64,000 nucleotides of DNA, taken from assembly GCA_019044685.2 (NCBI GenBank), contig JAGTXX020000009.1, forward strand, positions 1,178,001 through 1,242,000. Reading direction: 5' to 3'. The notes beneath the pieces are model-generated. The model saw only the letters and a list, made by a program, of their open reading frames with translations, did not search any database and had not been told where the DNA came from. A program made the translations under genes and the position numbers. The DNA is from Nannochloris sp. 'desiccata' (lineage: Eukaryota; Chlorophyta; Trebouxiophyceae; Chlorellales; Chlorellaceae). This document shows, in pieces, positions 895-20,903 of the stretch (positions are counted from its first letter, which is position 1; each line of letters opens with the position of its first letter).

Positions 895-3800
895 ATGCCA
901 GTTGGGGTTTACAGGCCGCAGGCCAGCAGCCTGCCGGCTTATCGCCCTGCTTTTAGATCGGTAGCGCCCCATCTAGGCTCGAGCAGTTTGGGTTTGCGCA
1001 CCCAGTACGTTGGACTTCGCAAAGCCCTTGGATTGCGCCATCATAGCTTTACGGCCGCCGCCCAACCATGCACGTTACCCCGCTTCAGACGCGGTGCCTT
1101 ACAAGTAAGTAACTAAAATACGATACATGGGGCGCATACGGGCCGATTTCAATTTGGGTTTTAGCCGCCAAGGCTTTAGCATGAAAACATGATTACAATG
1201 AAGAAGCTGAGGTAACCTACTTCATCTGCCAACTATTTCCAAATTAACCATATACCCAATATCATGCAGGTCTTTAGCAAGCACTCCGACATCCCAGAAG
1301 CCAAGGGCTTGGTAAGTTACCCTTCTCAACCTCCATGCACCTCGATTTAACTCCGCTCCTTTTTAAAATACTGAACTCTCTGATTAAATAACCAACTATA
1401 CTCCCTCTTATTCTTACTGCAGTTCAATCCCGAGAACGATAAGGATGCTTGTGGAGTGGGTTTCATCGCTGACCTGTCCAAAGAGCCTTCTAGAAAAACT
1501 GTCTCTGATGCATTGGAGATGCTGGTAAGAATGACTCACCGTGGTGCTTGTGGTTGTGAAACAAACACCGGTGATGGTGCAGGTATTCTTGTAGCTATTC
1601 CTCACCTCTTCTTCTCTGAAGTTGTTGAACGAGACTCTGGTTTCAAATTGCCTCCCAAGGTAGGTTGATCAATATTATAAAAGAAATACTCCACTGCTAA
1701 TTTTTTTTACCCCTCCTTTTAGACTTTCTAACCCAATATTATTTTGTCTGCACTATAACAGGGTGACTATGCTATCGGTATGACGTTCCTTCCCAACGAT
1801 CCCAAGAAATACGAACAAGCTAAACTCTGTGTCGAACAAGTCGCTGCTAATCAAGGCCACACTATTCTTGGCTGGCGCTCTGTTCCTACCAAGAACTCAG
1901 ACCTCGGTGAGTCTGCCATCAAGACTGAGCCTAAAGTCGAACAGTTCTTTGTCACCCGTGCTACCACTGATTCCGCTATTAAAGCTGGTACTGAGCAACA
2001 GATGTATATTTTGCGTAAATTGTTGGAACAACGCTGGCGTATTACCGGTCTGACTGACGATGATGCATACGTGTGCTCTCTTTCTTCCCGTACTATCGTC
2101 TATAAAGGGCAGCTTACTCCTGAGCAGGTATCCACCTACTACCCTGACTTGAAGTCTGATCGGTTTACTTCTTATATGGCCTTGGTTCACTCCCGTTTCT
2201 CGACAAATACTTTCCCTGCCTGGCACCGTGCTCAGCCTATGCGCATGCTAGGCCACAATGGTGAGATTAATACCTTACGCGGTAATGTTAATTGGATGAA
2301 AGCACGTCAAGGTGTCATGAAATGTGAAGAAATGGGCCTTTCTGAACGTACCCTTCAAAAATTGTTGCCCATTGTTCCCAAGGCGCAATCTGATTCCGGA
2401 GCCTTTGACTCCGTTTTAGAGTTATTGGTCCGTTCTGGCCGTGATTTACCTGAAGCGACCATGATGATGATTCCTGAAGCCTGGCAGAATGATGCTTTGA
2501 TGAGCAGAGAGAAGAAGGATTTTTATAAGTTCCATTCTGCTATTATGGAGCCTTGGGATGGTCCCGCTTTAGTGTCTTTCACTGATGGTCGTTTCATTGG
2601 TGCTACTCTAGATCGTAATGGTCTTCGTCCCGGTAGATATTACATCACCAAGAGTGGCCGTGTTATTATGGCATCTGAAGTTGGTGTTGTTGATGTCGAT
2701 CCTGCTGATGTTGAAAAGAAAGGAAGATTGATGCCTGGTAATATTTTCTTGGTAGACTTCGATGCTCATGCGGTCATTAATGACGCTGATATGAAGAAGA
2801 AATATGCTACTGCAAGGCCTTATGGAGACTGGCTTGAGGAAGAGATTGTCCAGCTAAAAGATATTTTGGAAAGCGTTCCAAAAAGCGTGCTCAGCGTGCC
2901 TGCTATTTTGGGCGCGTCCTCTGCTCCTGCAGCTACTGCTGCTGCTAGTAATGGTAATGGCAATGGGCATTCTCCTATTAATGCTCCTGTTGGTTTACAG
3001 CGTCTCCTTGCCCCTCTTCGGGCCTTTGGCTACACTGTCGAGACAGTCGAGAAGCTTTTACTTCCCATGGCCAAAGCTGGCGCTGATCCTTTGGGATCTA
3101 TGGGTAACGACGCACCTCTTGCTGCCATTAGTCAACGTCCTAAACTCATGTTTGAATATTTCAAACAACTTTTCGCTCAGGTCACCAACCCGGCCATTGA
3201 CCCTCTCCGTGAAAAGTTAGTCACCTCAATGCGTTGCATGGTCGGCCCTGAAGGCGATGTGACTCAGACAGTACAAGAGCAAGCACGTCGTTTGGATCTC
3301 CCTCACCCTTTGTTAAAGCCAGAAGAGATGGAAGCAATTAAAGAAATGAGTTATCGAGGTTGGGTCTCTAAAACAATTGATATTACGTGGCCTGTTTCTG
3401 AAGGTCAAGATGGCCTTGTTCGTGCTTTAGATCGTATTTGCAGTGAATGTGCTCAAGCTATTGATGATGGGTTTGATTTCTTGGTTCTTTCTGATCGTGC
3501 TGCTGGTCCAGATCGTGTGACAGTGCCCTCTTTGATGTCTGTCGGTCGGGTGCACCACTACTTGGTAGAGCTTCAAAAACGTTCTCGCGTTGGTTTGCTT
3601 TTGGAAACTGCTGAAGCTCGTGAAGTACATCATTTCTGTTTGCTTATTGGATACGGTGTCGATGCCATCTGCCCTTACCTTGCTATGGAAACTGTGACCG
3701 CTTTGCAAGAAGACGGCCTGATCCCAGCAAAATATTCCCGTGAGGAAATTTTGAATAGTTACATTAAAGCTTCCACTGATGGCGTTGTTAAAGTTATGGC

Positions 3801-6800
3801 CAAGATGGGTATCTCCACTGTCGCCAGTTACAAGGGGTCTCAAATTTTCGAGGCTCTTGGTGTGAGCCCTGACGTTATTCGATCTTGCTTTGCCGGTACC
3901 GCCTCCCGTGTTGGTGGTGTTGGCTTTGCCCGTATTGCTGCTGATCAGTTGGCTTTACATCATCAAGGTTATGGCTTGGTTGGTGCTGTGGATAACCATG
4001 TATTATCTGATCCTGGTGATTTCCATTTCAGATCTACACCGAACCATGAAGTACATTTGAACGATCCCATTGCAATGGCAAAGCTGCAGGAAGCTTCCCG
4101 TACTGGAAGTACCGCTGCCTACAAGGAATACGCTGCCATTACTCAAGAGTTAAATAAGCGAATCAATTTACGTGGTATGCTGCGCTTTAAGCAAGCTGAT
4201 AGTGGATCTGTCCCTATCGAGGAAGTCGAATCCGCTGCTGAGATTTGCAAAAGATTCGTTACTGGTGCCATGTCTTATGGATCTATCTCTTTGGAAGCAC
4301 ATACCACTCTTGCTATCGCTATGAATACTCTCGGTGGCAAGTCAAATACCGGAGAAGGTGGTGAGAATCCAGCTCGTTTAGTACCCAATGCTGATGGCAC
4401 GAATAACCCGATGAGATCTTCAATTAAACAAATCGCTTCTGGTCGTTTCGGTGTGACTGCCCACTATTTGACCAACGCAGATGAGCTGCAAATTAAAGTC
4501 TCTCAAGGTGCAAAGCCCGGTGAAGGTGGTGAATTGCCTGGTGGTAAGGTGCAAGGTGACATTGCAAAGACGAGAAACTCAACTCCTGGTGTTGGTCTTA
4601 TTTCCCCACCACCCCATCACGATATTTACTCTATCGAAGATCTTGCCCAGCTTATTTACGATTTGAAGAGTTCCAATCCTACGGCCCGTGTCTCTGTCAA
4701 GCTTGTGAGTGAGAATGGTGTCGGTGTTGTTGCGTCAGGTGTGGTCAAGGGCCATGCTGACCATGTTTTGATTTCTGGACATGATGGCGGTACAGGTGCC
4801 GCCAAGTGGACTTCTATTAAAAATGCGGGTTTGCCTTGGGAGCTTGGTCTTGCTGAGACACATCAAACGCTTGTAGCGAATGGTCTCCGTGGGCGTTGTG
4901 TGGTGCAGGCTGATGGTCAGATGAAGACTGGCAGAGATATCGCCGTTGCTGCACTTTTGGGCGCCGAAGAATTTGGATTTGCTACTGCTCCTTTGATCGC
5001 TATGGGATGCATTATGTGAGTTGCTTGGTTTTTTGACTGTTTTATTCCTTAGAAAATGAAGCTACCATTGACGTTTATTTTGGCTAAAATAAACATTATT
5101 GACTTTATTTTTATTATAAAATTTAACCCCATTGCTTGCCTTTTTTCTTTTTTTTCCCTCCTCCTCAGGATGCGTAAATGCCATACCAACACCTGCCCAG
5201 TTGGTATCGCTACCCAAGACCCTGTCCTCCGTGCCAAATTTGCTGGTCAACCTGAACACGTCATCAATTTCCTTTGGCTTGTAGCTGAAGAAATGCGTGA
5301 GCTCATGGCAACGATGGGATTCCGTACAATCAACGAGATGGTTGGTCGTGCAGATATGCTTGAAGTAGACCCTGAAGTGATCGCATCAAACCCTAAACTA
5401 GGAGATATCGACCTGTCCCGTGTCCTTATCCCTGCTGCATCCCTCCGCCCTGGCACTCCTCAAACGTGCGTTGAGAAACAAGATCATGGTCTTGATACCG
5501 GGCTTGACGAGAAATTAATTGCCGCCTGCGCTGATGCCCTTCCTGCTAATCAAAGCACTGCTCCTCACCCTGTGACTGTCTCCATGCCGGTGATCAATAC
5601 TCATCGTGCTGTGGGAACTACCTTGTCTCATGAAGTAAGTCGTCGTTTTGGAGAAGCTGGCCTTCCTAGGGACACCATACAAGTTAATTTGACTGGCCAT
5701 GCTGGTCAGTCCCTGGGTGCGTGGGTCTGCTCTGGTATTACCATCAGACTTGAAGGTGATGCCAATGATTATGTCGGTAAAGGTCTTTCTGGTGGTGTTC
5801 TTGCTGTCTACCCACCCGCGACCGCTACTTTTAAACCTGAAGAGAATGTTATTGTCGGGAATGTCTGTCTTTATGGAGCCGTCAAAGGTGAGGCGTATTT
5901 CAGTGGAATTGCTGCAGAAAGGTTCTGTGTACGTAATTCTGGTGCACAGGCTGTTGTTGAAGGTGTTGGTGACCATGCTTTGGAATACATGACTGGTGGA
6001 ACTGCGGTCATTCTTGGTAAAACTGGAAAAAATTTCGGTGCCGGAATGAGTGGTGGTCTTGCTTTTGTGTATGATCCTGATAGCCGTTTAGGTAAATTGT
6101 GCAATGTGGACGTATCTTCTGATCTTTTCCCTGTTGATGAAGAAGCAGATCTGGCTTTACTTCACTCTTTGGTCGAGAAACACGCTCAGTATACAAAGTC
6201 CCCTTTGGCAACGTCACTTCTTGCTGATTGGGGTCGTTCTGTTCGCAGTTTTGTCAAAGTATTCCCTCATGAATACCGCCGTGCGTTGGATGAAGCTGCG
6301 AAACTTGCTGCTGCACGTAAAGACGAAGAAGATCTCCTTGCGGGTGCTAATCTTAATGTTGATGCCTTTGAACAACTCAAGTCGTTGGCGATGGAGGTAG
6401 TGAAGGCACCACCTGGTCCTAAATCACCTGCTGCCTTTGCTTCTGCTCGCAGAGCAGTTGAAGCTGCTACCACTGCAGCCGCTGCGAACGGTTCCGCACC
6501 CACGCTTGATGCTCAAAAGGAATTTGCAAAGTTACTGCACAACGCCTCTGCGGGTCAGCCTGTCGGCGGTTGGCCCGCTGTTTGGGAAGCTGGTCGTCCT
6601 ACTGTTCTTCCTGATGGTACTGCACAAAAGAATCGTGGATTTGTGTCTTATGAACGTTCTCCTATGCCCTATCGCCCTGTTGAGGAACGCATGGAAGACT
6701 GGGGCGAGGTGCATGCTCATTTACCCAAGGCCGAGCAAGCAGATTTACTCAACACACAAAGTGCTCGTTGCATGGATTGCGGAACCCCTTACTGCCTTAA

Positions 6801-8199
6801 CCGGACCACTGGTTGCCCTCTTGGTAACTTGATTCCCGAGTGGAATGCTCTGGTCTGGCAAGGAAGGTGGCGTGAAGCTTTGGACCGTCTTTTGGAAACG
6901 AATAATTTCCCTGAATTTACCGGCCGTGTCTGCCCTGCTCCCTGTGAAGGTTCTTGTGTGCTGGGTATCAACCAAAATCCTGTCACTATCAAAACAATGG
7001 AAGTTTCCATCATCGACAAAGGCTTTGACGAAGGATGGATTGTTCCTCGTCCTCCCATGTCTCGCACAGGTCGCCGTGTTGCTGTCATCGGAAGCGGCCC
7101 CGCAGGCATGGCTGTAGCTGATCAGCTTAACAAAGCTGGACACACCGTCACTGTATATGAACGTTCCGACCGTCCTGGTGGCTTAATGATGTACGGAGTG
7201 CCTAATATGAAAACCGATAAAGTTGATGTTGTTCAACGTCGTGTCAATTTGATGGCTGAGGAAGGAGTTACCTTTGTTACTGAAGCCCACGTTGGTAAAG
7301 GCGTAGATATCAAATCTATTCGTGCTGCCACTGATGCAGTTGTTCTCGCTGCTGGTGCTACAAAGCCTCGCGACTTGCCTATTGAAGGTCGTGGCTTAAA
7401 GGGAGTTCACTTTGCAATGGAGTTTTTGCATGCTAATACGAAATCTTTACTTGATTCCAACCTTGCTGATGGGAAATACATCTCTGCTGAAGGGAAGAAA
7501 GTTATCGTCATCGGTGGCGGTGATACTGGCACTGATTGCATTGGAACTTCTCTCCGCCATGGTGCGACCTCCATCGTCAATTTGGAGTTGTTAAGTCAAC
7601 CTCCGGAGACTCGTGGAGCAAACAATCCCTGGCCATATTACCCTCGTGTATTCAAGGTAGATTATGGCCATGCGGAAGCTGCTGCCAAGTACGGAAAGGA
7701 CCCTCGTGAGTATGAGGTCTTGAGCAAGCGGTTTATCGATGATGGTGACGGTAATTTGAAAGGAGTTGAGATCGTTTCAGTGGAGTGGGAATTCCCTGCT
7801 GGTGGGCCTCCTAAATTTAAGGAAATCCCTGGTAGTGAGCGCATTCTTGAAGCGGATCTTGTGTTGCTTGCAATGGGTTTCTTAGGCCCTGAGGCTACTT
7901 TGGCAGAAGCGCTTGGTGTTGATCTTGATCCTCGTTCCAACTTCAAAGCTGAATTTGGCCAGTTTGCGACTTCTATTGATGGTGTATTCGCTGCTGGAGA
8001 TTGCCGTCGTGGACAGTCTTTGGTTGTTTGGGCTATTGCTGAAGGTAGACAAGCAGCTGCTGCCTGTAATGAGTATTTAACTTCTCGTCCTGCCAAGTAT
8101 CCTGAAGGTACAGATCGTACTGAAGGTGGTGTAATCCCTGTGTATGAGTTTGAGGAGAGTGGTGGACTCAGAAACAGCGGTCGCCATGCTACAGCTTAA
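895..8199 (+). CDS. NADH-type glutamate synthase (fused GltB+GltD), organelle targeted
   Basis: Five exons: 895-1104, 1270-1311, 1423-1659, 1762-5015, 5169-8199, giving 2257 residues, close to plant NADH-GOGAT (about 2200). It makes two glutamates from glutamine and 2-oxoglutarate. The first 84 residues are a basic, Ser/Ala/Arg-rich presequence. Cys94 in KDACGVGF is the expected N-terminal nucleophile of the class II glutaminase domain after propeptide removal. The central and FMN domains follow; the 3Fe-4S motif [15 protein letters not shown] sits near residue 1252 across the last intron. The GXGXG domain is around 1400-1600. The GltD part starts near 1737 with Cys-rich [10 protein letters not shown] and CPAPCEG, then the FAD site [12 protein letters not shown] near 1885. 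An Ala/Asn-Gly-rich insert lies near 2930-2970 nt. In C2 metabolism it re-assimilates released ammonia. Compartment (plastid or mitochondrion) is not settled by sequence. Confidence 0.97.
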
Positions 8200-8640
8200 A
8201 TTAGCGTAGAATGCTCTCTTTGAAGATCAAAAATTAAATTTTAAAATCAAAGAAGTTTGTATTATGACCACAGACAGGGTTGCTGAGGGTTGCTGTTGTG
8301 AATTTGAATAGAAATATATATTATTAATATTAGTATATAAAATATTAGTGTATACTTGCATAAACGAATGATACAAACGACCTTTGAACTCGCTATGGTT
8401 GATATTTGATAGTCTCATTTCTCCTTGTCTCTCTATTCCCTGATTTTCGCCGGGTCGCTTCGCCGGGTTTTACCTGTTCGCCGGGTTTTTTTACCTGTTC
8501 GCCGGGTCGGATAAGAGCATTCTTATTTGCAAATAATATCATTCTGCACCTTCAAATGTAGTCTATTATCTCCTCAGTAGCAAGGAATTGCTTCAATTAT
8601 CCTTTCATCACCTCCTGGCCCCCATCCATTGTATGATCCA
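8200..8640. other. Intergenic: 3' region and GCCGGGT repeat array
   Basis: After the glutamate synthase stop the DNA is AT-rich to about 8440. From 8446 it carries four direct copies of TTCGCCGGGT (see the repeat entry). No gene seen. Confidence 0.5.
8446..8507 (+). repeat. Four direct copies of TTCGCCGGGT, mirrored by two inverted copies at 9893-9916
   Basis: The decamer TTCGCCGGGT starts at about 8446, 8459, 8477 and 8498. The last two copies sit in a tandem unit TTACCTGTTCGCCGGGT. The reverse complement ACCCGGCGAA occurs twice at 9893-9902 and 9907-9916. The GC-rich decamer stands out from AT-rich surroundings. The arrangement (direct array on the left, inverted on the right, about 1.4 kb apart) resembles terminal inverted repeats of a small mobile element, but no target-site duplication was found. 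Confidence 0.6.
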
Positions 8641-9111
8641 ATGGCTTCATCAGCATATCCCTATCAGGTGCGTTGTAGGACTTCTACAGTATACTATTAC
8701 CACCACAATGTTCACTGGCCGTCTCGCCGTGGCAATAACAACTCTTATTTCTTCTTTTCAGGAACTCCTTCGCTCCCCTCGCGGCAGAATTGTGCCATTG
8801 CAGGGTGAACCCTCTCACCTGCCCAAGGTCAGTGCCTGTTGATTTCTTTCAAGGTGGTATGCTCCCCACATGATATTGTATTGTTCACATGTTTATTGGT
8901 GACATAATTCACTACCCTTGTGCAGCTTCGTAACGATGTGATCGACCATGAGAAAGAGACCCCCAGCAAACGCAGGCTCACGCGCCATGTTGTTGACTCG
9001 CAAAATCAATCCTCTCCTGGTCTTGCATCAACTCCCATCTCCCAACCTGGACCTACGCCAGAGGTGAAGTCAACAAACTTCCCAAGAGGTGAAGTCAACA
9101 AACTCAAGTGA
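8641..9111 (+). CDS. Small hypothetical protein, three exons
   Basis: Not a recognised family. Proposed exons are 8641-8667, 8762-8827 and 8926-9111, all phase 0. The splice sites are good: CAG|GTGCGT, TTTTCAG|G, AAG|GTCAGT, TGTGCAG|C. The join gives about 92 residues starting MASSAYPYQ and rich in charged residues and Pro/Ser, with a basic run TPSKRRLTRH. The 3' end has a tandem 19-base repeat (AGAGGTGAAGTCAACAAAC, twice near 9060-9105). It overlaps the 3' end of a gene model on the other strand, so one of the two may be wrong, or they are convergent. It lies inside the inverted-repeat-bounded segment. Phase consistency over two introns is the main support. Confidence 0.35.
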
Positions 9112-9523
9112 TCCCAGGTGATCCTCGTGAGGTAATTCAGGTGGGTACTTACCCCCTGAGGTTCCGTCATTAAGCCCTTTCCAGTCATCATAGTACGTCT
9201 TGAAGATACTGGGCCAGTCCGGGCTGCTTCCCGTGACTGGTACCAGCAGGTAAGGCGGGTCGAGGTGGGTGACCTCAAAGACAAGCCCAGGCCCCGCATG
9301 CAATCGGTTGAACTGAAAAAGCTTGTGCACAAGCTTTGAAAACTCTTGGTAAACAGAATCTGTAGTTTTGAAGACGCAATTAGGTTTCAGGAAGTAGTTG
9401 TTGTCGCAGACCCAAAAGGTAACAGTTGTTGTAATGAGGAGGTGATCTGATCCAAATGTGAATGGTGAAAGAGGTTAATTAACGGTGCAGGAACTCACCA
9501 CGATATGCAGGATGATCAGACAT
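9070..9523 (-). CDS. Small hypothetical protein, two exons
   Basis: Exon 1 is 9523..9499 (MSDHPAYR plus one base, donor G|GTGAGT). Exon 2 is 9446..9070, joined at GGATCAG|ATC, giving about 133 residues. The exon 2 frame is long and protein-like: VTFWVCDNNYFLKPNC, then HAGPGLVFEVTHLDPPYLL and SIFKTYYDDWKGLND. No family was recognised. An alternative 3' splice at GGGG|GTAAGT (about 9150) joined at about 9050 would end the protein at 9006 instead. It is antisense to the end of the neighbouring small gene. Aromatic-rich composition and low stop density make this more convincing than a random frame, but only transcripts would prove it. Confidence 0.45.
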
Positions 9524-10258
9524 TATGTAAATATGCTGCAATCTATTTACACGCACGCAAGGTAGTTTCAATTATTTGATTAATTGAATTTGAATCAATT
9601 CAATCGAAAATCTTGAGGAGCCTGCGCTTCTTACGGAGAAGAAAGGGAAGAACTTGGTTAGATTAACTTGCAGTGAATATAAGGGGGGCGCGGCTACAAT
9701 GATAAATGCAATTGAGCATCTATTAATTTCTCATCCATTAGCGAAGGATGCTTGCTCGCCTACCTTGACTGAACTTCAATAACACTTGATGAGCGGCAGG
9801 AAATAAGCTTTAAATGAGCTCATAAACAATAATTAATGCAAATGCGTCATTATAAGTTGCTTAGAGTAGCGTTCAGGAATTCAGGAATGCCGACCCGGCG
9901 AATGGAACCCGGCGAAAAGAATGGAATATGTCCTCTTTATAAGTAAAATTCGAAACTCACTAGGACTGGCAGGACTTTTTTTTTCCTTTCTTTTATTTTT
10001 TTTCTTCGTTTGTTTGCTTTATAGTAGTAATAAGTAGTGTTGATTGTTTATCGATGTGGATGATGCGTAGATCGCCATCCCTTGTAAAATAGAATGCACC
10101 ATTAATTGGAAAGAGAAAGAGTGTGGCAAAATTTTAAAGTGAAAGCCTGCGGCCGAGACAAACTGTGTCACAATTTCATTATTTCGTTGCCAGCCTTGAC
10201 TAGCCCCTATCTTGTTATCAATTATACGAGGTATAGTTCGTATTTGAAAGCAGCCAGA
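9524..10258. other. Intergenic region with right-hand inverted GCCGGGT copies
   Basis: 735 bases, AT-rich, with two ACCCGGCGAA copies at 9893-9916 and a pyrimidine-rich tract at 9974-10010 upstream of the oxidoreductase gene. No gene seen. Confidence 0.4.
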
Positions 10259-11414
10259 ATGAAAGGTGTAATTTTTGAACAATTTGGTCCCCCTGAAGTT
10301 CTTCGAGTTCGAAATGATCTGCCAAAGCCAGAGCGAAAACCTGGCCAAGGCCGCTGCCTCGTTCAAATCGCTTCGACAAGTGTGAATCCTATTGATTATA
10401 AAACTAGAAAGGGCGAGGTGCCTCGCTTCATGGTCAAGCTTCCCAATGAAAGTAGTGATCTGTTCCCCGTCGTCTTGGTTAGCCTTGGACGGCCTTCCAC
10501 GGCATGCTTTGAAAGAAAACTGTAATATTCCACAACCACTGAGTGTAAAAATGAAACTCGTCATTTCCTTCCTGCAGGTTCTTGGAGGCGATTTGAGCGG
10601 CGTTGTTGTTGAAAGCGACGAGGGCAGCAAGTTCCCTCCTGGGACCCGAGTATTTGGCTGCACTGAAGGCTTCCAGCTGTATAGCCGCGAAGGATGTTAC
10701 TCGGAGTACTTCTGCGCACCAGAAAATCAACTCGCTGTGGTCCCTGCCAACACTACCCTCTCAGACGCTGGCGCTTTACCGCTTGTGTCTCTCACAGCCT
10801 GGCAATCTTTGGAGGCAGCTTCTCTTTCCCCAGGCAACAGACTTCTTATCCATGCTGGGGCAGGTGGTGTAGGTAGCGTTGCTATTCAAATCGCAAAAGC
10901 ACGTGGTCTCCACGTGACAACCACCTGCTCTACCCGCAATATTGATTTTTGTACTAAGGAACTGGGCGCCGATGTGGCGATCGATTATACCACGCAACAG
11001 TTTGAAGAAGTCTGTAAAAACGAACCTTTCGATGCTGTTATTGACCTGATCGGAGGTTCCGTTGAAATTCGAAGTATGAAGGTGCTGAAAAAGACAGGGA
11101 CAATGGTTACGGTTTTAAACAGTGGGTGGATCAAGGAACGTGGTGTGGGCATGGCTCCACTGTTTGTTTTATACCACCTTGCAAAGAATAAAATGTTCGG
11201 TACCTTACGCCTGGGCCCTAAATATAAAGTTATTTTAGTAAGTCCTAATGGAGAACAGATGGCCGAGGTAGCTACATTGCTGGAAAGCAGGAACTTGAAG
11301 CCTATCATAGATAGAAAAGTGCCATTGGAAGAGGTAGTAGAGGCTCATAAGTACATGGAACAAGGGCATGCAAGGGGTAAAGTTGTTCTGATTGTAAATC
11401 CTGCATTGGAGTAA
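10259..11414 (+). CDS. Zinc-independent MDR-family quinone oxidoreductase / alcohol dehydrogenase-like
   Basis: Two exons, 10259-10477 and 10578-11414, joined in phase 0 (TTG|GTTAGC ... CTGCAG|GTT), giving about 351 residues, normal for the medium-chain dehydrogenase/reductase superfamily. The N-terminus MKGVIFEQFGPPEVL and NPIDYKTRKGEV are the GroES-like domain. LGGDLSGVV follows the splice. AGAGGVGSVAIQIAKARG is the NAD(P)H-binding glycine motif, and the C-terminus ends AHKYMEQGHARGKVVL. Structural and catalytic zinc ligands are absent, as in quinone oxidoreductases (RTN4IP1/plastid envelope types). It probably reduces alkenals or quinones with NADPH; the exact substrate is unknown. It is convergent with the hydroxypyruvate reductase gene. 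The donor is slightly atypical, so the join may shift by a few codons. Confidence 0.88.
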
Positions 11415-11684
11415 GATGGTTAAGTAGTTACGGTGACTGAATTGATGGTGCATGTGACCTAGCGTTGTTCTCTGATTGATGTTTTTTTTTTCTATTTGCT
11501 TACTACTTGCTTAATTTTTCGTGTACGATAGTTTGTTGTGTTATAACTAGCGAATTAATAATTACACAAGAGAAGAAAAAGAGGGGGTAGTTAAAGATAA
11601 AGCTGGCAAAGACGGTAGGATTGAGAAGCAAGAGCAAAGCATCAATTCAGGTTTTGTAACACAGAAAAATATTTAAATTCTTGA

Positions 11685-13053
11685 TTAAACTGTGGGCAAG
11701 TTCAATTCCTTTGCGTTGACAATAGAAGGAGCAGCCTTAGGGATATCCTCAAACGGTCCGTCTACAAACGGCAACACATCGTTCTTTGTCCAAGCAGGGT
11801 AGCCCTTCAAAGTAGCAGCTACGTTGCATGCAGCCAAGGTCGCCATACCAGCTCTGGTCCACAGAGTAGCAGAGGCAATATGAGGGACGACCACAGCGTT
11901 AGGGCAGTCACCAAGACCAGGTTTCATCAAAGGTTCGTCTTCAAATACATCAAGACCACATCTGAAATCAGGATTTGCTTTTAAATGAGCTACAAGAGCA
12001 ACCTCGTCAACACATGGTCCTCGGGCAGCATTCACCAACACGGCATCTTTTTTCATCATATTCAACCTTTCTTTATTGATTAAATGCTTGGTATTTTCGT
12101 CAAGATTGCAGTGAAGACTGACCACATCAGATTCACGAAGTACTTCCTCCACAGTTTCGCATCTTCTTACTGTGACGGGTTTCTCGCCTTTTGATTTTAA
12201 TAAGTTTCCATAGTCTGAAATATACTCTTCCAGGAACTTGTTGGGGTAAGGATCGTAATAGATAAGATCCATTTTATGTCCTTCAACCATCATACGTGCA
12301 TAGGCGCTACCAATACGCCCAGCGCCGACGATACCGACAGTTTTACCTTGAAGTAAGTTTCCGACAAAGAGGGTGGGCAACCATCCTTTGTACTTGTTAG
12401 CACGCATAAAGTTATCTCCTTCGACGACACGGCGGGCAGCTGCCATAGTTAACGCAGCAGCAAGCTCCGCGGTGGTTTCTGTCAAGACTCCAGGGGTGTT
12501 TCCTACAGGTATGCCGCGTTTTGTGGCCTCTGGCACGATGACATTGTTGTAGCCGACTGCATAGTTTGAGTATGCTCTGCCACCTGCAGCTTTGAGAGCT
12601 TCAAAAAGCTCGGAGCTCCAATCTTCAGTGAGCTGGCCAATCAATCCATCGCATTTCTTGTCGAGAAGTTTCTTGATGGTGGCGTTATCGAGGATGGTTT
12701 GTTCAGAAGTGCAGATTTCTACACGGCATCCAGAGGAGGTGAGGACATTGAGCCAGCGATCGCCAGGGAGATTTTTGGTGACGATGACGCGATGTTCGCC
12801 GTCAGGGTTGTGCACCTGTATAAAGGAGGAAGTTGGTTAATAAACGGCTTGATCAGGAGCAGATTCAGCCAATCAAGGCAGACGGGAAGTTGTGATTTTG
12901 TAAGATTAGATATAAAATGCACACCTCGACGGGAATGCCGTTCACACTAGCTTTGGTAGTCATTGATCTTGAAGCTTGGGCAGCAGCAGAGGTCCTCACT
13001 TCAGGTGTAAGAGCCCTACCAGCAATGCGAGAGAGCACACTTCTGAGTGCCAT
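11685..13053 (-). CDS. HPR1: Hydroxypyruvate reductase (plant HPR1 type), mitochondrial-like presequence
   Basis: Exon 1 is 13053..12925 and exon 2 is 12815..11685, joined in phase 0, 419 residues. It reduces hydroxypyruvate to D-glycerate with NADH, the second-last step of photorespiration. The enzyme body matches the plant HPR1 pattern almost without gaps: CDGLIGQLTEDW, VGNTPGVLTETTAELAAAL, the Rossmann motif VGIVGAGRIGSAYARMM, catalytic Arg in NAARGPCVDE, Glu in DVFEDEP and His in VVPHIASAT. The first 35 residues (MALRSVLSRIAGRAL...) are an amphipathic Arg/Ala/Ser presequence typical of mitochondria. The C-terminus NLPTV has no peroxisomal SKL-type signal, unlike land-plant HPR1. The upstream region is shared divergently with the twin-LOV gene. 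Confidence 0.96.
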
Positions 13054-13642
13054 GCCAAACTATCTATTATATATCTGCACGTCTGCACAAGCAAATCTAA
13101 ATAAAATACTATTAGATGACACAATGGAGCCTCGATCAGCTTAAATGGGAGTTCTTGTGCGTCTCTGTTTCTCCACCCAAATCCTCCAACACTTGGAAGA
13201 CCCTGCTTTGCAAGTTGAGTTGTGTATTTGTTATGGCAACCATCAAGTCAATTTTTCTAAGCTGTCACATACATCCTAGGATAATCAAGCTTATATCGGT
13301 ATTCATTCACAATACAACTAAGCACCCTCAGGAGGTTCCTATCTCGTCAATCTATTTACAAGCCTTGCGGGCCGACTCAAGGCGGCAACGGGACAGAGCA
13401 GTTTTTTTCTTCTTTTCTCGAGTTTTTTTCAATTAACTGATTTCTTTTTGTCAGCCGTGTCTAACAAGACTCTGCAGTGTTAATCAAGGAAATACCCATC
13501 AGGATATCTGTTTTTGAAGCCTGTCCAAGTTCTTTCTGGCCCTTTTCGGGCGGAGCTCAGGTGTCACAGCACTCCCAGCTATACATGCTGTCGGGCACAA
13601 AATCAAGTTCACAGTATTACTTTTGGTTACTTATTTAGTACA
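13054..13642. promoter_or_regulatory. Divergent promoter region, HPR1 / twin-LOV
   Basis: 589 bases between two divergent start codons. It contains pyrimidine-rich and homopolymer T stretches near 13400-13450. No gene or RNA recognised. The arrangement would permit co-regulation of a photorespiratory enzyme and a blue-light receptor. Confidence 0.4.
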
Positions 13643-14943
13643 ATGGCTAGTCTACAGTCTCAAGCAGCTGCCCTAGACGCGTTTTTCTCGCAATATTCGC
13701 TCAATTTCGTAATTAGTAACCCTCGCGAGCCCGATAATCCAATTATCTATGCCTCGGAGGGGTTTTTCAGGATGACGGGTTATTCCCCAGCAGAGACTTT
13801 GAACAAGAATTGCAGATTCTTGCAGGTAAGAGAAAGAGATCGCAAATTTGTTTCGAGATTTTTGATGCAAAGCCTTCCCAAAGGGTAGCTTGAATTCTCA
13901 CCATTTTCCCGCGATTCTCGTTTGCTGACATCTTATTGATCCATTAACAGGGTCCCGGCACTTCCCCGCAAGCCATCATGGAAATTAGGGAAGCAATGAG
14001 AGAGGAACGACAAATCAGCGTCCTCCTACTGAACTTCCGCAAAGACGGGCAGCCATTCTGGAACGCATTTACCTTGGCTCCTATCAAAGGCTTGTCTGGT
14101 GTAGTTGAGTATTACATTGGCATTCAAGTAGACGTTACAGAGTTTGTAGGTACAGGAGAAATAAATGAAGAAGCGGTCAAGGCCGTGGCCAAAGAAGAGC
14201 TTGCACAAGCCCAACAAATGGCCCAAGACATAATGCATAATGCTGATTTAATAGCACAGAACTGTCGTCAAACATGTGGGGCCGATAAAAGCATCCCGAC
14301 CTCACTGTTATCTGGTCTGAGCTCTGTTGCAGGCGCCTTTGTTATGTGCGACCCCAAATTACCAGACCTGCCTATGGTATTTTGTAGCCCTGGGTTTTTA
14401 GAGTTAACAGGGTATAGCTGTGCAGAGCTATTAGGTAGAAACTGTCGGATGCTCCAAGGACCTGAGACCAACCCGGATTCTAGAAGAATAATTAGAGAAG
14501 GATTAGCTGCAAAAAAAGCGTTTACAGTGTCTATTTTAAATTATAAAAAAGACGGAACTCCATTTCAAAATTGTTTACATATAGCTCCGGTGAGAGATGC
14601 TGGCGGAGAGGTCAAATTTTATTGTGGGGTGCAATTAGAATTAGGTGAAGGACGGAGCGGTGGTCGATCAAGTAGCGCTGGAGAGGATGCAATCCTGGCA
14701 ACTGATACTAATGGCCATGATATTGGCAATGAAACTGATGGAAATGCCCATCATATTACTGCTCAAGCGACAGGAATGCAAATATTACAGCAAAAAGGTA
14801 CCGTAGGGGCAGTACGGGTAGCAGTACGCTCTCTTGCTACGAGTGGATTACGACGTTCATTATCAGATCAATATAGACCTGGTGCAGAACCTGGGACCAT
14901 TGGAGCTAAGCCAACAAATGCAGGTGAAGGACAGCAGAAATAG
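13643..14943 (+). CDS. Twin-LOV blue-light receptor protein
   Basis: Exons 13643-13825 and 13951-14943 (CAG|GTAAGA ... AACAG|GG), 391 residues, similar in length to plant TLP/PLP (PAS/LOV) proteins. LOV1 covers about residues 15-125. Its motif NKNCRFLQ, with the photo-adduct Cys57, is built across the splice junction into GPGTSP; NFRKDGQPFWN and FYIG-type strands follow. LOV2 covers about residues 180-290 with NCRMLQGPETNP (Cys226) and NYKKDGTPFQN. Both domains keep the reactive Cys, so both should bind FMN and form adducts; many PLPs have lost one. The C-terminal 95 residues are Gly/Ser/Thr-rich with no output domain. The role is inferred to be light-dependent protein interaction. It sits between two photorespiratory enzyme genes. 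Confidence 0.93.
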
Positions 14944-15563
14944 AGAGACAGCAATAGATAGAGTAGAAAACTTTGCACTTTATAGCCACCAATTATATAT
15001 TTTCTTGACGGTATTTACCTTTTTCGACAAGCAGTATACTTTTATCATAATTATTATATTTTTATTTACAGAGGTGTCCTTGAATCAATTAGATACTCAT
15101 AGTACTTAGTATTATTAGTAGTAAATCGTTGCGTGAAATTTATGAAATGGAAAGAAAGAAAGGAAAAGGGGACTTCGTTAGGAGGAATAAAGATTGATTT
15201 CGTTTAGATAAAAATTCGGGGGTGCCGTACAGAGTTGAAATTTGAAATCATTTAATATTATTCGGAAAGAAAAGGTACAAAGTTGGGATGAAATGATCAA
15301 ATCAATTAATCATTCAATCAGGTAACTCTCCAAGGTTGGAAAAAGAGAATTGGGAAAATGAAAAAGGGGAGGAAAGAATAAAAAAAAACATCACAAAAAG
15401 CAACGCCCAGATAAAAAAAGAGAGACGCCTATGAAATAAACCAACAAGACAAGAGAGGCAGTTTTCAAATGCCTACTTTCAAACAAACAAATGCAAACTT
15501 TCCCCTTGATCTTCTCTTTTATTATTACTATTATCTTTCCTAATGGTACTGAACGCAGTCAAG
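14944..15563. other. Convergent intergenic region
   Basis: 620 bases between the 3' ends of the LOV gene and the glycolate dehydrogenase gene. AT- and A-rich, with homopolymers near 15380-15400. Only probable 3' UTRs; no gene seen. Confidence 0.4.
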
Positions 15564-18500
15564 TTACTGTTGTTGCTGTTCAGGTGCTTTCGCTTTTGTG
15601 GCTTCGTCGACCAAATACACTAGACCTCTAAAATTAATACCAGAGTGATTACTCAAAGACATTTCACAAGTACGGGAGGTAGAGTACCCATCGGAGCACC
15701 CGGCCACATTCAAATGTTGTAAAGAAGATCCAGTTAACTCGGGGTATCTCATTCCACGATCACCAGCCATACCACAGCATGGAATATTCGAAGGCACCAC
15801 TTCCTCTGCACACATTGAGGCAACCTTGAGGAAAGATTCTTCAATACCCATTTTCTTGGAAGAGCAAGGCACGTGCACAGCTACAGAATCTTTCACTTTC
15901 GTGAACTCGAGTTTATCTGCCAAGAAGTGGCGAATGAACTCGACAGGCTCATATAAAGAAAACCGAAGAGCGGGGTCGCTGAGACTTGCCTTGATTTGAG
16001 ATAAACATGGGGATGTATCCACAACAATGGGATACTTACCACCTTCCGAAGCCTTCATAAGAGCAGACTCAAGTTCGGTACCCTTCTTTGCAGCAGCATC
16101 CTTGAAGCCACGACTATTGAACATCATCCCACAGCATGTGTTGGACAAGCCCTCGGGGTAGATGACCTCGTACCCTGCTTTATTGAACAAGGAAAGTAAC
16201 TTTTCGTGGACACTGGCTTGCTGATCGTCACCACGGGAAGGTCCCATGATACGGGTAACGCATGCAGGGGCGTAGACGACCTTGCGAGGGATACTACGGG
16301 TTTCAGAATTTGTAGCGGCGACAGGTGCGGCAGGGTTTAAATCCAGTTTAGATGCACCTTTAGGCATGTAGGGGTTCCATTCAGGGATCATATGATTAGA
16401 TACTCTATTTAACGCAGTGGAAATCGCTTGAATAGGGGTAGTTCCAATCACAGCATGCGCAGCAGACACTACATTCAAGGCTTTATTCATTACCCAGGCG
16501 ACTGATGAAAAGTTGTTGGCAATGGCATCGGCAACAGCAGAAGCACGAGGCATCTTTTCCATATCTTCACTACGGATTTGTTTGATTAACTCTCCAGTGT
16601 TGATTTTGACAGGGCATTTCTCTTGGCACATCCCGTCAGCAGCACACGTGTCTTGACCGTCATATTCATAAATGGCAGACATTTCAGCGAGACGAGCTTC
16701 TTGTTGAGGGGTACGAGCTTCCATTTCTTTGAGACGGTAAATTTCTTTGTACACAGCAATACGCTGACGAGGAGTGATAGTCAAATCTTTGGAAGGACAG
16801 TTGCTTTCGCAGAAACCACACTCGATACAACGATTTACCAAAGGAGACGCCGTGGGGGAGGGTTTCAAGTGTTTGACGTGGGCCATAGGATCTTTGTTTA
16901 AGATGACACCAGGGTTGAGGATGTTACTTGGATCAAATAATCCTTTCAATTCCCACATTAATTCGGTAGCCTTGGTACCCCATTCCATCTCAACATAGGG
17001 CGCCATGTTACGACCGGTGCCGTGCTCACCTTTCAAAGAACCACCGTGTTTCACCGCGACGATGTAGCACATTTCATCCATCATATCTTGGAATCGTTTC
17101 ACTTCTTCAGGAGTACGGAATCCTTGAGAAAAGACCAAGTGTAAATTTCCTTCCAAAGCGTGACCAAAGCATGATGCATCATGATATTCAAACTTCTGGA
17201 ACATTTCAATCAAGTCTACAGTCATCTCACCCAGACGGTCAGTAGGGCAAGCGACATCTTCCAAAAGCATGGTAGTTCCAGCCTCACGAGCTCCACCAAC
17301 GATGGGAATTAAGCCTTTGCGTGCGTCCCAATAAACCTTTGCTTCTTTATCGTTGTGGGTGAAGGCATAGTCATCAAGATCCTTGACAACACCAACGTCA
17401 GGGCCATACGGGAAATTGGAGGCACGCAAGGTGGAATGGATCTCGCCAAGACGAGCGTGCAAGTCTTCAGAAGTTTGTCCGCGACATTCAATCAACAAAG
17501 CCGCCGCCATTGGGCCACAGCCCTTGATGTCTGGCACTAAAGTAGACATTTTTTCATCAGCTTCGAATTCTCGTAATGCAGCACGATCAAATAACTCTAC
17601 CGCATCAACTGCAGTTTCGTGACGAAGCACAGCAGCTGCTTTGCAAGCAGACATGATGTCTGGGAATAGAACAAAGGCAGACGCCTTGTTTGGCCATTCA
17701 GGGACTGTGTTGTAGGTCACTTGAGAGACGAAACCAAGCGTACCTTCACTACCAATAATTAAACGCTTCACAATCTCGATAGGATCGTCAACAGGGAAGT
17801 CTACAAGGGCATTTAAAGAATATCCAGTGGTGCATTTGATGGAGAATTTACGACGAATCAAAGAAGCTAATTGTTTATCAGCTTGAACCCTCTTGGCTAG
17901 GTCAACCACACCTTTGACAAGCTCCGCATGATTTTTAAGGAACGCAGCACGTGATCCCTCGTCAGCAGTGTCCAGGATACTACCATCTGCAAGAACGATA
18001 CGAATATCCTTCAAGGTGTGGTACGTATTTTGACTGACACCGCAGCACATACCAGAAGAGTTGTTATTAACGATGCCACCAATCATGCATGAATCAATAG
18101 AAGCAGGGTCAGGTCCAATTTTGTATTGAACAGGGTGGTTGTGCTTGTGCTTGTGATTGGCAAGAATGCGGTTGACTTCACCGCCGATGAGACCAGGCTC
18201 AACTGTAATCATAGAGCCATCACCGTGGACAGTGTAGTTTCTGAAATTGTTTTTACCAGTGTGACTGATTTTTAAGAGCACAGAGTCGGTGAGAGCCTGC
18301 CCAGAAAGGGAGGTGCCAGCGGCACGGAAGGTTACAGGGACACCATGCTTCTCAGCGATAGGGAGAATCTTTTGGATCTCTTCTTCGCTGGTAATTTTCA
18401 AGACCAGTTTGGGGTTGAGTCTGTAGAAAGAAGCATCAGTTCCGTAGGCAAAGGTACGAACAGGGTCAGTGAACTGACGGGCCTTGGGAATGAAGCCTGT

Positions 18501-19034
18501 AGGGGATTGAAGAAAATAAACATTGGTTAGTAAATATCTCTATGGATCAGAAATTAGGGGGTACAGACAGATTTGGATGGTTTTATTAAGTAGAATGAGT
18601 GGAAAAACAAAGTCATCTGGTTTAATCTAAGTTGAACAGATCAGCCCAGGACAAGATCAATGGCGGTGGCCACAAAACTTACTTGAAACATCTTGGATAA
18701 ATGCTGCATAACGGCCATCCTCAATGCGTCTACCATCAACATTCTCCCATTCCTTGGGTACAAAGTCTTTTTCGTGAGGTTCTACGATAGAAATAGCACC
18801 GACTTCATCCGTGTGGGTGAGAGGAAGCACATCGGGTTGGAGTTTGGTAGCCACTTGTTGTGCAGGGAGAGCTGCTGCGCGGATCTGAGACATCGAGGAA
18901 GGTAAATTGCGCTGGACAGCTGGTTCACGGGCTCCATAGAACCCTGAAGCCAAGCTAGGCAAAGTATTCTCTTCGGCCGATGCCACCAGTCCGCGAAGCC
19001 TGCCTCCCAGGAGGGAGGCCGCGCGACGCTTCAT
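15564..19034 (-). CDS. GYD1: Glycolate dehydrogenase, fused FAD subunit and Fe-S/CCG subunit
   Basis: Exon 1 is 19034..18683 and exon 2 is 18496..15564 (A|GTAAGT ... CTACAG|GC), 1094 residues, about the length of Chlamydomonas glycolate dehydrogenase. It oxidises glycolate to glyoxylate, passing electrons to a quinone pool instead of O2. The N-terminus MKRRAASLLGGRLRGLVAS is a mitochondrial-like presequence. The FAD_binding_4 domain starts near residue 145 (FRAAGTSLSGQA, then GPDPASIDSCMIGGIVNNNSSG). An FAD-oxidase C domain follows (LKGEHGTGRNMAPYVEMEWG). Near 670 is the ferredoxin motif CIECGFCESNCP, and near 737 CAADGMCQEKCP. Two CCG modules contain NTCCGMMFNSRG (about 905) and PCCGMAGDRGMRYPEL (about 1024). 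A D-lactate dehydrogenase role is possible because the family uses both substrates; the cluster context favours glycolate. It is divergent from the aminotransferase gene. Confidence 0.93.
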
Positions 19035-19289
19035 GACCAGTTAGTATAGGTTGTTGATATGTGAACTGATAAAAATTTGAGCTCAAATGCCTACCCCACC
19101 ACCTCATAAATCCTCCTACAATGCCATATGAGCGATTTAGAAAGTCGAGTCCAAAAGTGAATGGGTGAACTTGATGAACGTGCGCATTTCAGTGCAGATC
19201 AGGTAATTTAATTGATTTATTCTGCAGCTTTATTCTTATTTGCAAAGCATCAGTACGGGTCACCTTTAAGAAAAGCTTAATAACAGAAG
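19035..19289. promoter_or_regulatory. 255-base divergent promoter between glycolate dehydrogenase and aminotransferase
   Basis: Only 255 bases separate the two start codons, so both 5' UTRs and promoters must overlap or abut. The region includes an AT-rich stretch near 19195-19240. No TATA box or known element was assigned with confidence. Confidence 0.6.
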
Positions 19290-20903
19290 ATGTTGGCCTC
19301 AAGAGCATTACGCAGGAGGTCTTTGCTCCAACGTGCTTGGAGCTCTATGCCCGCTTTTGCTGACGATGTGAGAATCGAAGATTTTTCACTGTTTATAGGA
19401 CCCGCCTAGAGTGCCAATGTGTTAGCTAATCGCCTTAAAATTCTCCTTTGAAAAAATGTAGGTTGTATCCGAAGTACCCAACTTACGCCCTGCCTTCTCC
19501 CACGTTCCTGCTGGACGCAACCATCTCTTTGTGCCAGGTAAGATCCAATCTAAACCCTCAACTCGCTTGCTCAGACACCCTACACCCCACAGATCGCAAA
19601 CCTCTGGGGTAGTAGTAGTAGATTTCTGTCTTGCGTTGAACCTCGATTTCCATTCTTTTTACACAACTATTATCTCTTAAAATAAATTAGGAACACTTTC
19701 TAACAGCCGTATCCATCCTCATTCTTTCCTACAGGCCCTGTCAACATCCATGAGAATGTTATCCGCGCAATGCACGTCGGTGGACAAAACCACAGAGACG
19801 CCTGGTTTGCTGATTTCTACAAGAAATCCCTGGAAGAGTCCAAGATGATCTTTAACACCACTGCTGGGACCCCTATCTTCTATCCTGGTACCGGTACAGG
19901 TGGCTGGGAGTCTGCTTTGACCAACACGCTCTCACCCGGTGACAAGGTTGTTACTTTCCGTTATGGTATGTTCTCTCACCTCTGGATTGACATGATGCAG
20001 CGCATGGGCCTTGAAGTTGAGGTCATTGACTGCCGTTGGGGAGATGGTGCTGATGAAGAGAAACTCGCTGAGGTCCTCGCCAAAGACACTGAAAAGAAAA
20101 TTAAAGCCGTCTGTGTAGTACACAATGAAACTACCACCGGAGTAACCTCCGACATCGGTGAAGTCCGTAAGACTATGGATTCTAAATCCCATCCTGCTCT
20201 TCTTTTGGTGGATGGTGTCTCCTCCATCGGTGCGCTTGATTTCCAATTCGACAAGTGGCGTGTTGATGTTGCCGTCACCGGGTCTCAGAAGGCTCTTTCT
20301 CTTCCTACTGGTCTTGCCGTGATCTGCGTTTCTGATAAAGCTATTGAAGCCTCCAAAACTGCAAAGTCTAAACGGTGCTACTTTGACTGGGCAGATATGC
20401 TCCGTACTAACCCCAGTGGGAATGTTCCCTACACCCCGGAAACTCAAATGTTATACGGACTCCGGGAATCTCTGAAGATGATGCGTGAGGAAGGTGGCAT
20501 GACAGCTGTAGCAGCAAGACATCATCGTTTGGCTGAAGGTACCCGTAAAGCAGTTGAAGGCTGGGGCTTAAAACTCCTTTGCAAGGACCCTCGTTGGTAT
20601 TCAGATTCCCTCACTGTCGTTGAAGTGCCCGAAGGAATCGATTCACAAAAGATTGTGGATATTGCTTATGGAAAATATAACTTATCTCTTGGTATTGGTT
20701 TAGATAAGGTCAAGGGTAAGGTGTTCCGCATTGGACATCTTGGTAACATGGATGAGCTCATGTTGGGGGGTGCCTTGTGCGGTGTAGAGATGGTATTGAA
20801 GGATGCTGGAGTGCCTATTACCATTGGCAGCGGTATTTCTAAAGCCACCGAGTACTGGAGACAGACAGCAAAGCCTATTCCTACCAGAGAGACCCTTCTT
20901 TAG
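19290..20903 (+). CDS. AGT1: Serine:glyoxylate aminotransferase (plant AGT1 type), mitochondrial-like presequence
   Basis: Exons 19290-19367, 19462-19537 and 19735-20903, 440 residues. A PLP enzyme that converts serine plus glyoxylate to hydroxypyruvate plus glycine. The enzyme body reads FVPGPVNIHENVIRAM across a splice, then NTTAGTPIFYPGTGTGGWES, SALTNTLSPGDKVV, VCVVHNETTTGV, LLVDGVSSIGALDF (Asp for the PLP ring), and the Schiff-base Lys in TGSQKALSLPTGL. FRIGHLGNMDELML is close to the C-terminus. The first ~26 residues (MLASRALRRRSLLQRAW) form an Arg-rich mitochondrial-type presequence. The C-terminus ETLL is not the peroxisomal SRI of land-plant AGT1. Its product is the substrate of the nearby hydroxypyruvate reductase, and its glyoxylate comes from the divergently transcribed glycolate dehydrogenase. 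Confidence 0.96.

Follow-up and report, generated by a model that had tools for sequence, protein, structure and literature searches.

The 64,000-nucleotide stretch of DNA analyzed here (hereafter, the window) comes from Nannochloris sp. 'desiccata', a green alga of the Chlorellaceae. Four of its genes, all in a span of 20 kb, are identified by homology as encoding glycolate dehydrogenase (GDH), serine:glyoxylate aminotransferase (SGAT), hydroxypyruvate reductase (HPR) and a glutamate synthase of the NADH type (GOGAT). This is probably a conserved, non-random neighbourhood of genes serving the mitochondrial steps of the C2 (photorespiratory) cycle in algae, whose closeness has been kept by selection for joint switching. 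A preliminary description of the window had proposed a photorespiratory cluster of these four enzymes in a eukaryotic nuclear genome; all four are indeed encoded within the 20 kb, and non-random clustering is supported by two haplotype contigs and by linked parts indicated in other Chlorellaceae. The enzyme identities it had drawn from motifs for GDH, SGAT and HPR are upheld by homology to Chlamydomonas counterparts.

Gene content of the locus

GDH and SGAT form a head-to-head pair, with a bidirectional upstream region of 255 bp (19035..19289) separating their start codons. GDH lies on the minus strand, from 19034 to 15564, in two exons whose limits are approximate and taken from a named Nannochloris relative of 1094 aa; the intron separating them runs from about 18680 to about 18495. 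Its FAD-GlcD part is fused to 4Fe-4S and CCG domains, and it shares 70% identity over 98% with CHLRE_06g288700 (Chlamydomonas GYD1), while scoring 169 bits against the bacterial glcD model, below the cut-off of 568. The fused domains, the length of about 1090 aa and the proximity to GYD1 identify the putative product as a GDH of the chlorophyte GYD1 type. SGAT, on the plus strand (19290..20903), has three exons with limits likewise approximated from a Nannochloris relative (440 aa): 19290-19379, 19462-19539 and 19716-20903. It putatively encodes a class V aminotransferase of the photorespiratory SGAT kind, nearest to a solved serine-glyoxylate aminotransferase (PDB 6pk1, 8e-137) and to CHLRE_01g005150 (Chlamydomonas SGA1, 71% identity).

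The best NCBIfam model for SGAT is bacterial BhcA, at 517 bits against a cut-off of 650, and gene clusters for pathways are usual in bacteria, both of which would fit the acquisition of a bacterial operon by horizontal transfer. However, GDH, SGAT and HPR all have introns, their best named relatives are green-algal, in the falling order Nannochloris, Chlorella/Micractinium, Chlamydomonas, and SGAT in Chlamydomonas carries another chromosome's tag. We therefore regard such a transfer as having a negligible probability.

HPR (11685..13053, minus strand) has two exons, 13053-12922 and 12821-11685, again approximate and taken from a named relative (419 aa). The protein shares 75% identity with CHLRE_06g295450 (Chlamydomonas HPR1) and 81% with a Picochlorum protein named hydroxypyruvate reductase; among generic models and solved structures, its best matches are glyoxylate reductases. 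Its N-terminus is arginine-rich, and its C-terminus bears no SKL. By its closeness to Chlamydomonas HPR1, it is a putative D-2-hydroxyacid dehydrogenase of the HPR1 type. A common upstream region of 589 bp (13054..13642) lies between the start codons of HPR and of a gene for a two-LOV-domain protein (13643..14943, plus strand; start codon at 13643), its two frames being treated as exons of a single gene. Both LOV domains carry NCRxLQ, which we take to be the characteristic motif, and a search of the protein for a kinase domain found none. This single gene separates HPR from GDH, so that the photorespiratory genes are few genes apart. The other gene between the four enzymes resembles PIG3-family NAD(P)H quinone oxidoreductases (10106..11414, plus strand; two overlapping frames with approximate limits) and scores below the cut-off of TIGR02824; to our knowledge it has no photorespiratory role. 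Non-pathway genes are interspersed in the neighbourhood.

GOGAT occupies 895..8199 on the plus strand, the start at 895 being the figure of the preliminary description, and includes two long frames (1759-5019 and 5053-8199) separated by a short presumed intron, with a catalytic-Cys segment at 1450. It scores 719 bits against TIGR01317 (cut-off 448), and its small-subunit domains are fused to the large subunit, whereas the ferredoxin type has a single large subunit, which identifies it as the NADH type. Ferredoxin-dependent GOGAT is the usual photorespiratory form in plants, and a candidate for that type, a 1596-codon frame, is present on contig C15. The fourth enzyme had been described as re-fixing photorespiratory ammonia: its presence stands, but the link to ammonia is weakened by the NADH type, the candidate on C15 and the chromosome-13 tag of Chlamydomonas NADH-GOGAT. 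Of the four genes, GOGAT has the weakest claim to membership of the cluster, given its NADH type and its lack of linkage in Chlamydomonas.

Chance, assembly and linkage in relatives

Chance proximity of these genes, a check proposed along with the cluster, proved to be rare. Of 1,000,000 trials in which 16 pathway loci were placed at random in 20 Mb, 158 had three starts inside a span of 6.2 kb and 7 had four inside 18.4 kb; the limits were a little looser in a separate run of 400,000 trials, which yielded 113 (three genes) and 3 (four genes), all of these figures applying to this one pathway, when many others could have caught a reader's eye.

The second haplotype contig has the same gene order and is colinear over window positions 1-36789 at 99.2-99.8%, broken solely by one 1.49-kb insertion. 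This bears on the idea that unrelated contig pieces were joined in assembly, which other parts of the assembly might encourage: it contains large inverted duplications, including arms of C17 that show 100% identity in a 20-kb comparison. A wider self-comparison found, close to the midpoint of the mirrored portion of C15, a 4.1-kb stretch (C15:627550-631635) that is 99.7% self-complementary and hence a fold-back with almost no spacer, making fold-back joins likely elsewhere in the assembly; the same comparison found no inverted match in C17:325220-335219, and a palindrome test at the calculated centres of the mirrored copies in C17 and C15, allowing for offsets of several bases, was negative. 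At the locus itself, however, two haplotypes that differ by 0.2-0.8% and by an insertion agree in gene order, and the same pairs are indicated in other species and metagenomes by equal-size contigs and tags. An artefact is largely refuted by this agreement, and we consider it very improbable.

Gene tags and contig sizes point to the same linkage in relatives, with the proviso that a shared contig was deduced from identical contig size and that tag order may not mirror position. GDH and SGAT carry adjacent tags in Chlorella vulgaris (D9Q98_005775/_005776), as they do in the Nannochloris annotation (g09647/g09646), where the named HPR tag, g04604, is far away; in Micractinium, GDH and HPR tags are two apart (ABPG77_007858/_007856). 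Cluster members fall on contigs of equal size in 16 distinct exact coincidences, including contigs as small as 13, 40, 40 and 51 kb, and there were no near-coincidences, in which sizes would differ but agree to within 0.1%. Linkage of pairs of GDH, SGAT and HPR, and once of all three, is thereby indicated in Chlorella, Micractinium and metagenomic relatives. By contrast, 14 other named algae have members on contigs of differing size (counted by hand), and in Myrmecia, Symbiochloris, Apatococcus and Elliptochloris the contigs are of equal size but the tags far apart. A scan of viral contigs for stray algal contigs with SGAT gave two pattern matches, neither a relative.

Extent and possible co-regulation

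Beyond the window, 20-25 kb upstream, genes for alanine aminotransferase (AlaAT) and alanine:glyoxylate aminotransferase (AGT) lie head to head, together with an NAD-malate dehydrogenase (NAD-MDH); AGT and AlaAT occupy matching places on the second haplotype. The upstream side also holds an SLC25 carrier, whose best solved relatives are an uncoupling protein and ADP/ATP carriers (about 1e-13), an ETF subunit and an NADP-MDH. The AlaAT/AGT pair and NAD-MDH extend the neighbourhood to about 46 kb, so that the cluster first described as spanning 20 kb holds for its four genes but not for its extent. Other genes of the cycle are on other contigs or more than 150 kb distant: SHMT (C7, C6 and C9:999530), GDC-P (C15), GDC-T (GCV_T matches on C10 and C1), phosphatase-like genes (Hydrolase_6 matches on C1 and C6), GS (C5 and C11) and the Fd-GOGAT-like gene.

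In the neighbourhood that we propose, GDH would supply glyoxylate, which would be transaminated to glycine by SGAT and, further upstream, by AGT with AlaAT; SGAT would also yield hydroxypyruvate for reduction to glycerate by HPR. Amino groups may come from the neighbouring GOGAT and AlaAT, and reductant possibly from the two malate dehydrogenases. Under low CO2 or high light, bidirectional promoters and a chromatin domain that the genes have in common could switch them as a group, and such co-regulation would limit the build-up of glyoxylate and hydroxypyruvate, with selection keeping the genes close. A bolder version, which we think unlikely, is a two-part module of roughly 46 kb for mitochondrial glyoxylate handling, one side made up of AlaAT/AGT, NAD-MDH, NADP-MDH, the SLC25 carrier and the ETF subunit and the other of GOGAT, HPR, GDH and SGAT. 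The SLC25 carrier, ETF subunit and two-LOV protein would then be unrecognised photorespiratory parts, serving as a glutamate or malate shuttle, the GDH electron acceptor and a built-in blue-light switch.

No 8-mer is common to all three divergent upstream regions (GDH/SGAT, HPR/LOV and AlaAT/AGT). GANTTNC, presumably the CO2-element consensus, occurs once in each, near background (0.5, 1.2 and 0.7 expected, respectively). The GDH/SGAT and HPR/LOV regions have six 9-mers in common versus a mean of 1.9 in random windows (0.043 of 300 draws reach six), too weak to be taken as a promoter signal. In Chlamydomonas, published work reports a joint, CIA5-dependent rise of GYD1, HPR1 and GCSP proteins in very low CO2; GCSP is on a chromosome other than that of GYD1 and HPR1, so co-induction needs no clustering.

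Alternatively, the genes may have been joined once in an ancestor of the Chlorellaceae and have stayed together through little rearrangement, with no regulatory value. The failure to find a promoter motif common to the three regions and the presence of unrelated genes among the cluster members are consistent with such inheritance, and the Chlamydomonas chromosome 6 tags for GDH (Cre06.g288700), SHMT2 (.g293950), AGT1 (.g294650) and HPR1 (.g295450), all within 135 tag steps, fit a single old linkage group that is slowly breaking up. Against it, our random-placement trials make an initial chance assembly of pathway members unlikely, and a photorespiration cluster was recovered by the 2020 survey (PMC7826186), which required clusters to be conserved across lineages. 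We judge inheritance without function possible but doubtful, and favor closeness kept by selection.

Comparison with known systems

Clustering of primary-metabolism genes, rare in algae, is extended here to another genus, in which a second haplotype also shows it, and probably to further relatives. The SLC25 carrier, ETF subunit and LOV protein are named as candidates for missing parts of algal photorespiration, and the neighbours could guide a search for the GDH electron acceptor and for the amino-group route to mitochondrial glyoxylate.

The cluster is not a new kind, having a precedent in Picochlorum. Foflonker et al. (2016), as described in citing papers, reported a photorespiration gene cluster for Picochlorum SENEW3/SE3, and Foflonker and Blaby-Haas (2020) recovered it as conserved among green algae. 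Hence the clustering that had been called uncommon in plants and algae is real but not unprecedented in print. The Picochlorum cluster likewise consists of neighbouring nuclear photorespiratory genes in a close relative, a likeness of description rather than gene by gene. The accessible parts of the literature searched on such clusters contained no mention of the AlaAT/AGT/MDH extension or of a Picochlorum gene list, and either may still be in print. Published functional clusters in Picochlorum include photorespiration, and some are co-expressed under salt stress.

The nitrate assimilation cluster, known from Picochlorum and further green algae, is similar in that neighbouring genes belong to a single primary pathway without being homologous. 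It serves another pathway, and its joint response has been demonstrated (in Picochlorum, eight co-localised genes go down together under two herbicides), whereas the Nannochloris cluster is known from its genes. In Chlamydomonas (17 genes in our table), the GDH and HPR relatives also share one chromosome, with the AGT tag between them; in contrast to Nannochloris, the chromosome 6 genes are spread out rather than tightly grouped, and SGAT is tagged to chromosome 1 and NADH-GOGAT to chromosome 13.

Photorespiratory genes in and beside the window

The enzyme identities proposed in the preliminary description hold. Glycolate dehydrogenase (GDH, GlcD-FeS-CCG type; minus strand, start at 19034), serine:glyoxylate aminotransferase (SGAT; plus, 19290), hydroxypyruvate reductase (HPR; minus, 13053) and, leftmost in the cluster, NADH-glutamate synthase (GOGAT) with fused small subunit (plus) were recognized with Pfam, NCBIfam and solved structures, as was a PIG3-like quinone reductase to the right of GOGAT (plus). 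GOGAT is thus present as described, but its proposed role in ammonia re-fixation fits less well: it is the NADH form, whereas in plants photorespiratory ammonia is re-fixed mainly by the ferredoxin form. The top NCBIfam models for GDH, HPR and SGAT (glcD, glyoxylate reductase and BhcA) all scored below cut-off; these genes take their names from their Chlamydomonas matches GYD1, HPR1 and SGA1 (70%, 75% and 71% identical, respectively) and from PDB 6pk1. Their closest relatives among the matches listed in a protein search were Nannochloris sp. 'desiccata' (Ndes2526) proteins (98-99% identity), and their starts were taken from mapped Nannochloris proteins.

GDH and SGAT lie head to head with start codons 255 bp apart. 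HPR lies head to head, 589 bp apart, with a plus-strand gene between it and GDH (13643-14943); the encoded protein has two LOV domains and no kinase domain, and may be a blue-light receptor. The N-termini of GDH, HPR and SGAT (the last taken from its relative) are arginine-rich, their first 20 positions including no more than one acidic residue each, and none of the three has an SKL C-terminus; these sequence features fit a mitochondrial location. Chlamydomonas photorespiration is described as mitochondrial in a passage of PMC12174325.

The left flank (C9:1148001-1178000) encodes NAD-malate dehydrogenase (NAD-MDH; minus; closest in solved structure to plastid and glyoxysomal enzymes, 3e-103), alanine aminotransferase (AlaAT; minus; PDB 3tcm, 1e-153), alanine:glyoxylate aminotransferase (AGT; plus; about 1e-83), an NADP-type MDH (plus; 1civ, 2e-166) and, by eye, a DEAH-type helicase (plus). 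AlaAT and AGT form a head-to-head pair whose start codons are 347 bp apart, the AlaAT one having been chosen by eye. NAD-MDH to SGAT spans 46.2 kb, forming two groups with several unrelated genes between. Near AGT, two frames of segment L029 (423-986 and 3293-4132; C9:1158423-1162132) encode on the minus strand an SLC25 mitochondrial carrier and an ETF subunit (beta by eye), either of which could be a candidate for a photorespiratory role. At C9:1168002-1170581 (segment L030), a GDP-mannose 4,6-dehydratase (2-775, minus) stands head to head with an epimerase (1514-2581, plus) that resembles GDP-fucose synthase; this is a second neighbor pair, and its two steps may be consecutive.

Among genes recognized by eye, the next 10 kb leftward (L053) held unrelated genes only. 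The rightmost 43 kb of the window held no more C2-pathway genes among frames of at least 200 aa viewed by eye, except a methylenetetrahydrofolate reductase-like frame (29520-30308, by eye). SGAT is some 9 kb away from this frame, which might tie folate to the glycine-serine steps or be placed there by chance.

Haplotypes and the remaining pathway genes

Nannochloris is a small green alga (Chlorellaceae) near Picochlorum, and the assembly comprises 18 contigs (21.55 Mb), the window corresponding to C9:1178001-1242000. Contig C9 is colinear with C17 over window positions 1-36789 at 99.2-99.8% identity (40 kb of C17 compared), one 1.49-kb insertion apart, and from this similarity we read the two versions as haplotypes; AGT and AlaAT occupy matching places in the second. 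The insertion, which separates GOGAT from the quinone reductase (8440-9926), occurs on C9 and is missing from C17. Because it is copied on several contigs (99% at C9:1279888; partial on C10, C7 and C5), it is a repeated element, polymorphic between haplotypes and probably mobile.

On C17, matches at 71-114 kb mirror those at 546-589 kb, and the two arms show 100% identity across the 20 kb that were aligned. On C15, Fd-GOGAT-like and GDC-P genes are mirrored about a 4.1-kb, 99.7% self-complementary stretch (627550-631635). An assembly fold-back joining haplotypes seems likely; alternatively, the mirrored parts may possibly be real inverted duplications.

The pathway search of the contigs covered SHMT, GDC-P, the GCV_T and Hydrolase_6 families, GS, GOGAT and the aminotransferases. 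It found SHMT on C7, C6 and C9 (the last at 999530, with NAD-MDH about 152 kb to its right), GDC-P on C15 (two mirrored copies), GCV_T family genes on C10 and C1, phosphoglycolate-phosphatase-like Hydrolase_6 genes on C1 (twice) and C6 (partial), GS on C5 and C11, and a second GOGAT frame on C15 (1596 codons; two mirrored copies), a ferredoxin-type candidate. Since 9 of 22 aminotransferase candidates were scored, that family search is no full list, and the AlaAT gene of C9 was not among its results. Searching with the protein returned this gene, its C17 copies and one C6 paralogue (52% identity). At C7:492360-497303, about 3 kb separates SHMT from a frame for an FAD-linked oxidase that matches part of GDH at 31% identity, a possible further small neighborhood.

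Chance expectation and linkage in other algae

Placement as close as that noted in the preliminary description proved rare by chance, and tags and contig sizes indicate linkage of its parts in some relatives. When 16 or 25 pathway loci were placed randomly in 20 Mb (locus number and genome size assumed; 1,000,000 trials), three starts fell within 6237 bp in 158 or 625 trials, four within 18,395 bp in 7 or 38, five within 41,083 bp in 0 or 4, and six in none. Many other pathways might equally have been noticed, and for that reason the three-gene figure, taken alone, counts as moderate evidence for non-random clustering.

Linkage elsewhere was approximated from locus tags and longest-contig sizes in protein lists (120 listed relatives per enzyme), of which 62 for GDH, 43 for SGAT and 48 for HPR lay on contigs 5 kb or longer. 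Identical sizes occurred for eight GDH-SGAT, six GDH-HPR and four SGAT-HPR pairs, the size 323,881 recurring for all three enzymes; no listed pair was unequal yet within 0.1%. These matches give 16 distinct contigs, one from Nannochloris sp. 'desiccata' itself. If equal size means the same contig, those of 13,245, 51,067, 40,433 and 40,690 bases imply closeness; chromosome-size matches say nothing on it. GDH and SGAT tags are adjacent in Chlorella vulgaris (D9Q98_005775/_005776) and in the Nannochloris annotation (g09647/g09646), and GDH and HPR tags are two steps apart in Micractinium (ABPG77_007858/_007856). The Nannochloris HPR tag, g04604, is far from these, yet HPR and GDH are 6 kb apart, start to start, in the window DNA; the tags may belong to a different contig, or their numbering may not reflect position.

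On the other side, hand comparison of listed relatives found unequal sizes in 14 named algae: for GDH versus SGAT in Volvox reticuliferus, Edaphochlamys, Chlamydomonas eustigma, Haematococcus, Sanguina and Scenedesmus NREL; GDH versus HPR in Scenedesmus PABB004; SGAT versus HPR in Raphidocelis, Monoraphidium, Astrephomene and Bryopsis; SGAT versus both others in Myrmecia and C. reinhardtii; and all three in Pedinophyceae YPF-701. Split assemblies may account for some of these. In Myrmecia, Symbiochloris, Apatococcus and Elliptochloris, tags were far apart despite equal size.

Proposed joint regulation and known clusters

Joint regulation would most likely be what keeps the neighborhood's genes close. 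Indirect support comes from the head-to-head arrangement of enzymes that are functionally coupled and, by analogy, from co-induction in Chlamydomonas; a promoter test over the divergent upstream regions (GDH/SGAT, HPR/LOV gene, AlaAT/AGT) was negative. A passage of PMC12174325 describes Chlamydomonas GYD1, HPR1 and GCSP as induced together in a CIA5-dependent manner. Since this response takes in a gene on another chromosome, it shows the pathway to be switched as a unit but does not show clustering to be necessary.

Conserved green-algal neighborhoods, 317 in number, are reported in PMC7826186, an analysis stated there to capture the photorespiration cluster that Foflonker et al. 2016 had already reported. 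According to text in PMC12198440, functional clusters of Picochlorum SENEW3 include photorespiration, and some clusters are co-expressed in salinity stress; a passage of PMC11092101 mentions functional clusters without detail. The Nannochloris cluster is therefore another example of a known phenomenon, and its AlaAT/AGT/MDH extension may or may not already be in print.

Table 2 of PMC8320531 lists 17 photorespiratory genes of Chlamydomonas; in that source GDH, SHMT2, AGT1 and HPR1 carry chromosome-6 tags from 288700 to 295450 (135 steps of 50). The SGAT tag is on chromosome 1, and that of NADH-GOGAT, according to PMC10216424, on chromosome 13. Taking 17,741 genes, the chance of 4 of 17 falling in such a stretch is about 0.004. 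Like Chlamydomonas chromosome 6, Nannochloris C9 bears SHMT, AGT, HPR and GDH, and a fair reading is a loose ancient linkage group, tightened in Chlorellaceae, with SHMT and AGT as candidate counterparts.
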